In this document: positions 2,071 to 10,881 of the stretch, piece after piece
How positions within the stretch are numbered: position 1 is the first letter of the stretch
Layout of the letters: every line of letters starts with the position of its first letter
NCBI GenBank assembly: GCA_014378155.1
Contig: JACMOF010000195.1
Location: forward strand, 1-10,881
Source: Caulobacter sp.
Lineage (GTDB): Bacteria; Pseudomonadota; Alphaproteobacteria; Caulobacterales; Caulobacteraceae
DNA length: 10,881 bases
Direction: 5' to 3'
Notes under the pieces: generated by a model
What the model was told of the DNA's origin: nothing
Database searches by the model: none
What the model saw: the letters and a program-made list of their open reading frames with translations, nothing else
Translations under genes and position numbers: made by a program

Positions 2071-2145
2071 TGGAGCGGGCGAAGAGATTCGAACTCTCGA
2101 CCCCAACCTTGGCAAGGTTGTGCTCTACCACTGAGCTACGCCCGC
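2071..2145 (-). tRNA. tRNA-Gly (anticodon GCC), copy 1 in transcription order
   Basis: This has the same 75-nt cloverleaf as its neighbour, base for base, with the anticodon at 2111-2113 and an encoded CCA. It is the promoter-proximal copy. The 46-bp spacer between the two genes contains a small hairpin (CTCCG at 2054-2058 with CGGAG at 2064-2068) that could assist processing. Both genes are immediately preceded on the coding strand by GAT, so the duplication may include a few flanking bases. Confidence 0.97.
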
Positions 2146-8084: not shown

Positions 8085-10031
8085 TTGAAACGCTTTCTGG
8101 CCGTCGTTTCGGCCTGCGTCGCCACGGCGAGCACCTTGGCGGGCGTCGCCCAGGCCGAGGTGACGCCTCTGTCGGTCTATGGCGGCCTGCCCAACCTGGA
8201 ACAGGTGGAAATCTCGCCTGACGGCAAGCTCCTGGCGATCGCGGTGACCGATGGCGAGAAGCGGATGCTGGTCGTCCGTGAGGCGGCCGAGGGCGGCAAA
8301 CTGCTCAGCGCCATGAACTTCGGAAACACCAAGTTGCGCGCCGTGCAGTGGGCGGGGCAAGAGCACGTGCTGATCACCACCTCAAGCACCGCCGAGGTCT
8401 TTGGTCTGAGCGGGCCCAAGCGCGAATATCTGATGGGCTTCGACTTCAACCTGGTCACCAAGAAGCAGACCCTGCTGCTGAAAAACCAGGAAGGCGCGAT
8501 GAACGTCATTCTGGAAACGCCCGACGTGCGGTTCGTCGACGGCGTACCCCAAGCCTTCGTCGAGGGCGTGCATTTCAACGACAATCGCGGTTGGAACACC
8601 CTCTACCGGGTTAATCTGAAGACCGGCGTCACCAAGATGCTGGACAGCGGCGGCAGCGAAAACACCGACAACTGGCTGGTTTCCCCCGCGGGTCAGCCGC
8701 TGGCCCAGTCGATCTATGACGAAAAACAGGGCGCCTGGAGCCTGAAGGTCAAGGGCGACGGCGGCTGGACCACGGTCGAGAAGACCGTCTCGAAGATGGG
8801 CTCCTTTGGCGTTAAAGGCATGGGGCGCGACGGGCGCAGCGTGCTGGTCTGGGCCTATGACGAGGACACCGACAAGACCCTGCTGCGCGAATACGCCTCA
8901 GACGGCGGCCACGTCGACGTGCCGGGCAGCGGCGACTACGACAGCCCGATCCCCGCGCCCGACGGCTCGCGCCTGCTGGGTGGCTACAGCCTGGTCGGCG
9001 ACGAGCGCCGCTATACCTTCTTCGACACCAAGACCCAGGCCAACTGGAGCGCCGTGCGCAAGGCCTTTCCCGGCGACCAGGTCTCGCTGGAATCCTGGTC
9101 GGATGACCGGCGCAAGGTGGTGGTCAAGGTCGACTCGCCTACCCTGGGCCCGGCCTACGCGCTGGTGGATCTGGGCGCCAAGAGCGCCCGCTGGCTGGGC
9201 GACATCTACAGCAAGCTGACGCCCGACGGCGTCTCCGAGGTTCGCCCGGTCAAGTACAAGGCCGCCGATGGCCTGGAGATCACCGGCTATCTGACCCTGC
9301 CGCGCGGCAAGGAGCCCAAGAACCTGCCGCTGTTGGTGCTGCCGCACGGCGGCCCCGCGTGGCGCGATATGCCGGGCTTCGACTGGTGGTCCCAGGCCCT
9401 GGCCTCGCGCGGCTATGCGGTGCTGCAGCCCAATTTCCGCGGTTCGGACGGCTTTGGCCAGGCCTTCCTCGAAAAGGGCTACGGCCAGTGGGGCAAGACC
9501 ATGCAGACCGACCTGTCGGACGGCGTACGCTATCTGGCCACGCAGGGGACAATCGACCCCAAGCGCGTCTGCATCGTCGGCGCCAGCTATGGCGGCTACG
9601 CGGCCCTGGCCGGCGCAACGCTGGATCGCGGCGTCTATCGCTGCGCGTCGTCGGTCGCCGGCCTCTCGGACCTCAAGCGGTTCGTGCTCGACGGCAGCAA
9701 GCGTTTCGAGACGGGCAATAACTCGGCCCAGCGCTACTGGCTGCGGTTCATGGGCGCCGATGGCCTCAAGGACCCCGACCTGGCCCTGATCTCGCCGGCC
9801 AAGATGGCCGACAAGATCGAGATCCCGCTGCAGCTGATCCACGGCAGGGACGACACCACCGTTCCCTATGTCCAGAGCACCCTGATGGTCGACGCCCTGA
9901 AGAAGGCGGGCAAGCCGGTCGAACTGGTCACGCTCGACGGCGAGGATCACTTTCTATCCAGAGGCGCGACGCGACTGCAGATGCTGACCGCGATGGTGGC
10001 CTTCCTGGAGAAGAACAACCCGCCGAACTGA
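8085..10031 (+). CDS. Exported S9-family (prolyl oligopeptidase-like) serine peptidase, 648 aa
   Basis: A two-domain S9 peptidase. Residues 1-24 are a signal peptide ending AQA before EVTP, so the enzyme acts in the periplasm or outside. Residues from about 27 to 380 form the beta-propeller (repeated strands such as VEISPDGKLLAIAV and SPIPAPDGSRLLGG). The hydrolase domain, about 385-648, has the oxyanion segment LPHGGPAWRD (419-428), FRGSDGFG (451-458), nucleophile S501 in GASYGGYAALAG (499-510), acid D590 in HGRDDTTVP (586-594) and H622 in GEDHFLSR (619-626). It probably cleaves oligopeptides or dipeptides as a dipeptidyl- or acylaminoacyl-peptidase-like enzyme; specificity is not readable. 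The TTG start has GGGAG at 8071-8075, nine bases upstream. It lies 83 bp after the infC terminator and needs its own promoter, which I could not identify. The gene is complete. Confidence 0.93.
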   Translation: MKRFLAVVSACVATASTLAGVAQAEVTPLSVYGGLPNLEQVEISPDGKLLAIAVTDGEKRMLVVREAAEGGKLLSAMNFGNTKLRAVQWAGQEHVLITTSSTAEVFGLSGPKREYLMGFDFNLVTKKQTLLLKNQEGAMNVILETPDVRFVDGVPQAFVEGVHFNDNRGWNTLYRVNLKTGVTKMLDSGGSENTDNWLVSPAGQPLAQSIYDEKQGAWSLKVKGDGGWTTVEKTVSKMGSFGVKGMGRDGRSVLVWAYDEDTDKTLLREYASDGGHVDVPGSGDYDSPIPAPDGSRLLGGYSLVGDERRYTFFDTKTQANWSAVRKAFPGDQVSLESWSDDRRKVVVKVDSPTLGPAYALVDLGAKSARWLGDIYSKLTPDGVSEVRPVKYKAADGLEITGYLTLPRGKEPKNLPLLVLPHGGPAWRDMPGFDWWSQALASRGYAVLQPNFRGSDGFGQAFLEKGYGQWGKTMQTDLSDGVRYLATQGTIDPKRVCIVGASYGGYAALAGATLDRGVYRCASSVAGLSDLKRFVLDGSKRFETGNNSAQRYWLRFMGADGLKDPDLALISPAKMADKIEIPLQLIHGRDDTTVPYVQSTLMVDALKKAGKPVELVTLDGEDHFLSRGATRLQMLTAMVAFLEKNNPPN

Positions 10032-10106: not shown

Positions 10107-10286
10107 ATGTCCACGCTCTCAACCCCCGCGCCCTCGGCCGCAGAGGGCCCCGACGCCAGCCCCCGCGCGCTCTATGTCCTGCTGCTGGTTGTGTTCATCA
10201 ACTTGGTGAGCTTTGGCCTGGTCATTCCGCTGCTGCCCTTCTACGCCAAGTCGCGGAGCGCCAGCCCGTGGCAGGTGACGGCGCTG
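10107..10286 (+). pseudogene. MFS transporter (DHA1/TetA-like), first 60 codons only
   Basis: The 60 residues read as the start of a major facilitator drug:H+ antiporter: an Ala/Ser/Pro-rich cytoplasmic tail (1-19), then transmembrane helix 1 with VVFINLVSFGLVIPLLPFYA (28-47) and the loop SASPWQVTAL (51-60) that leads into helix 2. After L60, at 10286, similarity to any transporter stops. The frame runs into a REP-like palindrome and then, out of frame, through HlyD-type sequence; I found no stop codon in it to the parts I translated. About 330-350 residues of a normal MFS protein are missing, so no working transporter can be made here. The ATG at 10107 has no clear Shine-Dalgarno; a GTG at 10080 is in frame but poorly spaced from AGGG. 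The cut has left the remaining codons undamaged, so it is recent or it is an assembly join. Confidence 0.8.
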
Positions 10287-10330
10287 CAAAAGAGGGACGG
10301 CGCTCAAAAGAGGGACACGTGTCCCTCTTT
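10280..10330. repeat. REP-like palindrome with short tandem duplication at a gene-gene junction
   Basis: 10307-10330 is a perfect 24-bp palindrome centred on ACACGTGT, with arms AAAGAGGGACAC and GTGTCCCTCTTT. Just before it, GGCGCTG-CAAAAGAGGGAC (10280-10298) is followed at once by GGCGCT-CAAAAGAGGGAC (10299-10316), an imperfect tandem duplication differing by one base. The first GGCGCT belongs to the MFS reading frame, while CAAAAGAGGGAC is the left edge of the palindrome. TAA at 10330-10332 closes the HlyD frame on the left. The GGGACA/TGTCCC core matches the inverted repeat at 6414-6490. There is no transposase gene, so this is a non-autonomous element at most. Confidence 0.7.
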
Positions 10331-10332
10331 AA

Positions 10333-10881
10333 GTCCGCTCGGCCCAGGCCGAGATCGTCAAGCTGGAGCGCACCCTGCCGATCCTGCAGCGCCAACTGGA
10401 CGACCAGAAGATGCTGGAGGCCAAGGGCTATGGCGCCCGCCAAAAGCTCTTGCAGCAGGAACAGGCCATGGTCACCGCCGAGCAGGACCTGATCGCCCAG
10501 CGCGGCCGGCTGGACGAGGCCCGCGCCCAGGTCAGCTCCTTGTCACGCGACGGCGCGGAGCTGACCCAGCAGTTCGTCGGCCAGGCCGCCCAGGAACGCG
10601 CCGAGGCCGAGGGCCTTGCCGCCACGCGCGGCGACGCCCTGCGCAAGGCCCAGCAGAAGCGCGGTTTGCAGACCCTGACCGCCCCGGTCGGCGGCATCGT
10701 CCAGGCGGTGTCTGTGACAACACTTGGCGAGGTGGCCGAGACCGGCAAGCCGATCGTCACCCTGGTGGCCGACGGGGAGGCCCTGGTGGTCGAGGCCCTG
10801 GTCCTGGGCCGCGACATCGGCTTCGTGCACACGGGCGATCGGGCGGTCGTCAAGCTGGAGGCCTATCCGTTCACCCGCTAC
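10333..10881 (+). pseudogene. HlyD-family type I secretion membrane fusion protein, 5'-truncated and cut by window edge
   Basis: These 183 codons encode the middle of a periplasmic adaptor that links an ABC exporter to a TolC-type outer-membrane channel. KLERTLPILQRQLDDQKMLEAKG (from 10360) and the following Gln/Glu/Ala-rich stretch form the long coiled coil. ERAEAEGLAATRGDALRKAQQKRG is the returning helix, and LTAPVGGIVQAVSVTTLGEV (from 10675) with ETGKPIVTLVADGEALVVEALVLGRDIGFV is the lipoyl and beta-barrel part typical of HlyD. The sequence leaves the window at EAYPFTRY. The N-terminal membrane anchor, first lipoyl half and start are absent: an in-frame TAA at 10330 lies three bases before the first codon. 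The first ATG, at 10411, falls inside the coil and would give a useless fragment. No stop interrupts the frame, so the truncation is recent or artificial. No ABC exporter gene is in the window. Confidence 0.82.

Follow-up and report, generated by a model that had tools for sequence, protein, structure and literature searches.

A possible orphan type I secretion cassette with its left border in an MFS transporter gene of Caulobacter

Why does a gene for an MFS transporter run, after its first 60 codons, into the middle of a gene for a type I secretion adaptor (hlyD)? The join lies near the end of the window, i.e., the whole stretch of DNA that was analysed, which is a complete contig of 10,881 b (C548) from a Caulobacter draft assembly (G000; 3.83 Mb in 598 contigs, completeness 85.45%, contamination 3.37%). 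The first-pass annotation of this DNA had described two unrelated loci joined at a palindromic box and had named recombination or assembly as the candidate causes; our analysis leads to the same description and the same candidates. In our tentatively preferred reading, which we consider quite possible, an orphan type I secretion cassette has entered the MFS gene and the junction marks its left border. Misassembly is the main rival to such a real border of a captured weapon remnant. The features of the window are listed in Table 1.

Table 1. Positions of the features discussed, in the numbering of the window.
Feature	Position	Strand	Remark
tRNA-Gly (gcc) pair in tandem	1950-2024 and 2071-2145	-	about 98% identical over 84 b
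S9 peptidase gene, intact left neighbour	8085-10031	+	Peptidase_S9, 148.8 bits
MFS transporter gene, first 60 codons	10107-10286	+	no stop; homologue comparison
Imperfect tandem repeat across the border	10277-10313	+	GACGGCGCTGCAAAAGAGG at 10277-10295, GACGGCGCTCAAAAGAGG at 10296-10313
Perfect 24-bp palindrome AAAGAGGGACAC/GTGTCCCTCTTT	10307-10330	.	two AAAGAGGGACAC boxes back to back
hlyD piece (type I secretion adaptor), right side truncated where the contig stops	10335-10881	+	DNA homology, no stop

Two truncated genes and the bases that join them

On the left side of the join the contig is collinear with three relatives (G049, G020, G002) up to 10286, and the order S9 peptidase-MFS is conserved in relatives, in which the tandem tRNA-Gly pair of the window is likewise found. 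The MFS piece corresponds to the start of longer homologues (85% match) in G020, G002 and G051. The homologue of G020 (416 aa) belongs to family MFS_1 (PF07690, 228 bits); the 60-residue piece alone matched no Pfam or NCBIfam family in the profile search. In a search of 74 other genomes of the genus, the listed matches to the MFS gene end at or before 10286.

From 10335 on, the DNA is 90-92% identical to hlyD of G070, G022 and G049, and the piece covers codons 203-384 of the 464-codon gene of G049. It scored 43.2 bits with HlyD_3 (PF13437; Pfam cut-off 22.2) and 131.9 bits with TIGR01843, which is below the whole-protein cut-off of 208.65 because the piece is truncated. In the database comparison its closest named relatives were from Caulobacter, and among the matches listed 5 of the 74 other genomes of the genus (G070, G022, G049, G088, G005) have an hlyD at least 84% identical over the whole piece. 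Since the homologue matches stop at 10286 and the hlyD homology starts at 10335, our data confirm the limits given in the first-pass annotation (end of the MFS codons at 10286, adaptor sequence from 10333-10345 at the latest), and both pieces are free of stop codons. This clean homology on both sides supports the cassette reading.

The two genes are separated by 48 bases (10287-10334) in which CAAAAGAGGGAC is followed by CAAAAGAGGGACAC and this by the inverted copy GTGTCCCTCTTT. CAAAAGAGGGACAC and the inverted copy form a perfect palindrome, as had been noted before. It comes after an imperfect tandem repeat across the border, the first half of which is native MFS sequence. At equal base frequencies the expected number of perfect palindromes with arms of 12 bases is about 0.0006 in 10.9 kb. 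As background we used 40 other contigs of G000 (251,713 unmasked bases; masked stretches in six of them, 12,001 bases, were left out of this base count, and N runs did not affect motif counts), which contain one palindrome with arms of at least 12 bases. The single-strand DNA fold of the region was somewhat better than that of shuffled sequences (z -2.49), as would be the case for any palindrome.

The exact palindrome has a single site in the assembly and was found neither in 40 relatives (20-mer, 1 mismatch allowed) nor among 384 further genomes of the class (22-mer, 2 mismatches allowed). These counts contradict its earlier designation as a dispersed, REP-like element and led us to reject a high-copy REP. 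According to the available parts of the sources (PMC2817692, PMC3733652), REPs of the GTAG type have a GT(A/G)G head and many copies per genome; no GTAG or GTGG stands next to 10307-10330 on either side, and this assignment was rejected too. It had further been proposed that the missing gene parts were lost through a recombination or deletion between dispersed palindromes. Both genes are indeed clean up to the box, but the palindrome has one site in G000 and none in the other genomes searched, and a comparison with related strains, as had been suggested, placed the two genes at separate loci: G049 and G022 carry them on different contigs, and in the single-contig genome G005 about 614 kb lie between them. 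We therefore regard such a deletion as highly improbable.

Other origins of the joining region were also considered and rejected. For a plasmid origin there were 34 records with short matches, of which the best 20 had E values of 3-9 and at most 31% query cover. For a viral origin the 20-base core gave no exact match in viral contigs, the 16-base core being present in five. As to an RNA element at the join, only the two tRNAs reached the gathering score in the window.

The missing halves of both genes, for which the first-pass annotation had proposed a search of the same genome, were, short paralogous matches aside, not found in G000 at the DNA level. The query for the MFS 3' part was a 3.6 kb stretch of G020 that spans this gene and the next one downstream (40 of 325 first-look candidates scored); that for the hlyD 5' part, the ABC partner and the effector was the intact 10.4 kb operon of G049 (40 of 542 scored). 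Given the incomplete assembly and the small share of candidates scored, this absence is weak evidence. We left out a match of 42 b inside hlyD (C566:1500-1541, 86%), taken as chance, and ABC and RTX-repeat matches of up to 528 b (66-70%). A 460-codon frame on C526 with 22% identity was taken as a different adaptor. As expected of an orphan immunity cassette, the truncated delivery gene sits in an MFS gene, with no ABC partner or effector of its operon among the candidates scored in G000.

hlyD tails and boxes elsewhere in the assembly

With the operon query, further 3' pieces of hlyD were detected on four contigs of G000 (C391, C176, C161, C490); C176 and C161 were counted as one locus, so that the four tails represent three loci. 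C391 starts inside hlyD at its contig start, and C490 retains only about 86 b of the gene. We rejected C391 as the continuation of the window contig, as the overlap of 168 b is 93% identical and not exact. In the hlyD tail of C391 (L053, 219-245) an extra A in a run of A shifts the frame near the 3' end, which reflects either a pseudogene or a sequencing error.

Small genes lie behind each tail. In C391 these are short ORFs, whereas C176, C161 and C490 have ORFs of 208, 270 and 390 residues, respectively. The ORF of C161 was assigned to Imm11 (30.1 bits, cut-off 22.1). No Pfam family was found for the ORFs of C176 and C490 and for two ORFs of C391 (a small lipoprotein-like ORF of C391 was left out), so that a recognised immunity family is present in one of the four cassettes. 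A database search for relatives of the small C176 protein returned only the protein itself, and tblastn against the intact operons revealed no convincing effector start behind the small genes. The small-gene stretches of C391, C176 and C161 have a GC content of 49-52%, compared to 67-68% in their flanks; that of C490 has 65%.

In all four cases a AGGGACAC box lies on the same strand 3' of the hlyD end, near ordinary chromosome, at distances of about 967 (C391), 892 (C176), 1006 (C161) and 1220 b (C490). The 40 background contigs contain AGGGACAC once, ANAGGGACAC never and no hlyD pieces. Among 200,000 random same-strand windows of 1300 b from this background 248 contained AGGGACAC, a rate that rests on one occurrence and was computed after the boxes had been seen. 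A second, similar box adjoins the first in the window, in C391 and in C161. Two contigs (C381, C553) that hold AAAGAGGGAC without AC after it were left out. Because hlyD tails near related boxes recur in G000, the join in the window may belong to a pattern, and we find this recurrence more interesting than the palindrome as such.

Two further observations concern the boxes. On C490 (L105, 3220-3403) the box is flanked by the direct repeat GGCGGTCTCAACCG and abuts what we take, by eye, to be the end of an IS30-type transposase gene. On C199 (L106, 4390-4476) a AAAAGAGGGACAC box, found through the box pattern and outside the above count of four, lies about 80 b before the contig stops. From the box to this end the GC content is 35.5%, versus 67% in the rest of the contig; C199 gave no hlyD match. 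This box is possibly another cassette border.

On C176 a gene for methylmalonyl-CoA mutase leads into a tail of a second hlyD type, whose protein sequence is about 48% identical to that of the first, and C161 begins in the same mutase-hlyD join. The first 95 shared bases of the two contigs are identical, and over the 576 b that comprise the flank and the hlyD tail the identity is 89%. Unrelated genes follow, after which the contigs rejoin at GAAACAGGGACACACAC with 98% identity over 201 b. By their sequences, the two contigs appear to represent a single locus in two versions that have the same borders. Such a pattern would result if a cassette had been replaced through recombination at its borders; it points to either two strains or two copies in one genome.

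The double locus also bears on the most serious alternative, namely that assembly or binning erroneously linked two loci, perhaps of different strains, at the palindrome or close to it. The fragmented, incomplete and partly contaminated draft would favour such an error, as would the failure to find the missing halves among the candidates scored. The hlyD versions that are 93% identical, together with C176/C161, suggest mixed strains, and the 24-mer at which the contig breaks is present in C176 as well. On the other hand, apart from short matches the 48 joining bases are unique in the assembly, and hence no stretch longer than the palindrome is seen at which a join could have occurred. Moreover, box sequence cuts each gene, so that even a wrong join would probably leave two interrupted genes. 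Taken together, we consider an artefact doubtful.

A database search for short HlyD proteins gave 221 matches, which we count as weak support; among the best 120 of these some lie on contigs of 118-748 kb. By design the search is restricted to lengths between 0.55 and 1.75 times that of the query, which accounts for the short proteins; many of the proteins listed are on contigs of a few kb, whose ends may explain the cuts.

Intact operons, a remnant in a relative, and the proposed cassette

In five relatives (G049, G022, G005, G088, G070) the gene order is ABC, hlyD, large effector, with the effector of G070 running off the contig. Peptidase_C39 and ABC domains were identified in the ABC protein of G049. 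Three of the five operons (G022, G005, G070) have one or two small genes between hlyD and the effector, the other two (G049, G088) none. The effectors comprise 2006-2196 aa, and RTX repeats were detected in the three that were scanned. Pairwise comparison of four effectors (six pairs; alignments of more than 150 residues only, G005 effector to the end of the fetched stretch, G070 left out) gave alignments with 38-72% identity that start at residue 244 or later. Because no pair aligns before residue 244, the N-terminal parts differ, a divergence as in polymorphic weapon systems. For the small genes we infer an immunity role, the one further basis being the family name Imm11.

G005 also contains a remnant of hlyD near C1:3,261,400-3,262,170, in which residues 1-85 run into residues 283-464 in another frame. 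ORFs of 162 and 115 residues follow, and a gene for a phage-type integrase lies 1 kb before it. As this genome is a single contig, cut hlyD remnants with small neighbours exist free of assembly doubt. No AGGGACAC box was found within 18 kb around the remnant, which speaks against the box as a general feature.

Considering the hlyD leftovers beside small genes, one of which is a likely immunity gene, our data suggest that remains of former weapon systems are retained by the cell. In the mechanism that we propose, pieces of ABC-HlyD-(immunity)-effector operons would enter by recombination, often at boxes; the genes for export and effector would then erode or be displaced, the immunity gene would be kept by selection, and the adjoining hlyD tail would be a passenger. 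Beyond the contig end we would expect the 3' end of hlyD, an immunity-like gene and a closing box. The cassette reading is supported by the recurring hlyD tails with AGGGACAC boxes, Imm11 and small genes of low GC content, by the common borders of C176 and C161, by the G005 remnant and by the divergent N-termini of the effectors. Several findings argue against it. The window holds no immunity gene and the contig ends inside hlyD, and its box lies on the left and is inverted, while the other loci have their box on the right. C490 deviates in the GC content of its small-gene stretch and in a box at a presumed IS end, and one recognised immunity family in four cassettes, two of five operons without an intervening small gene, a remnant without a box, post hoc box statistics on one background occurrence, and four tails that are three loci also weigh against the cassette.

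Orphan immunity has been described for T6SS, CDI and Rhs systems. If our proposal is true, the idea would extend to type I secretion, with the N-terminal part of the effector as the variable one, and hlyD tails with immunity-like genes would be a readable record of past weapon systems of Caulobacter. In Vibrio cholerae, according to the accessible text, displaced T6SS leave orphan immunity genes and recombination swaps modules via conserved flanks (PMC5361080). Weapon leftovers and module swapping through flanks would be common to both cases. However, as far as that text describes, the orphan genes of V. cholerae have remained within the 3' part of their cluster (PMC5361080), whereas the pieces in G000 are found at several places of the chromosome, carry an hlyD tail, end at short boxes and have a putative immunity role. 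The Cdz system of Caulobacter crescentus, a contact-dependent bacteriocin of two small glycine-zipper proteins, shares with our loci the genus, a type I ABC and adaptor pair and, if the inferred role is right, a separate immunity protein, as outlined in the part of the report available (PMC5380434). By that description it is set apart by its secreted proteins of 86 and 84 aa (PMC5380434), compared to 2006-2196 aa for the effectors of the intact operons. No account of such units was found in literature on type I secretion, RTX, orphan immunity and Caulobacter, as judged by titles and the openings of abstracts.

Boxes and a Y1 transposase

The boxes, if causal, would name a testable route for the capture and exchange of cassettes. 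Y1_Tnp has one match in G000, on C537 (L102, 2670-3488), and this gene has inverted GGGGACACACACTCA pairs on both sides. The sections of PMC3733652 at hand describe TIRYT and TIRtron as Y1 transposases flanked by TIRs, some ends of which have the motif GGGGWSAS in common. The gene of C537 with its flanking inverted repeats resembles these elements, and its GGGGACAC repeats fit GGGGWSAS. Measured against the same description (PMC3733652), the window box AGGGACAC is unlike them: it differs in the first base of GGGGWSAS, is unique and has no adjacent transposase. The boxes of C176 and C161 have the 15-mer GGGACACACACTCAT in common with the C537 repeats, the window box only GGGACAC. In the 40 background contigs GGGACACACACTCA was not found, and none of the repeats of the C537 type.

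One further explanation of the join involves a small transposable element with AAAGAGGGACAC ends that inserted in or next to the MFS gene, after which a deletion or rearrangement brought in a complete or incomplete T1SS locus, the presence of hlyD being coincidental. The inverted boxes back to back look like two abutting element ends, and the single Y1_Tnp gene is flanked by inverted repeats. However, no transposase is found near the join, and the occurrence of hlyD tails together with boxes at three further loci stays unexplained, so that we consider this course of events unlikely.

The cassette reading can be combined with the transposase: T1SS immunity cassettes would be captured at, or moved in trans via, Y1 (TIRYT-type) boxes by a host-kept system that shuttles or swaps units of hlyD tail and immunity gene. 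We regard this extension as improbable; the link of the boxes to the single Y1 transposase is a lead only.

Outside these loci, an inverted pair (GGGGACACGTCC...GGGCGTGTCCCC) in a style like that of the window palindrome was seen on C140 (L128, 8011-8036).
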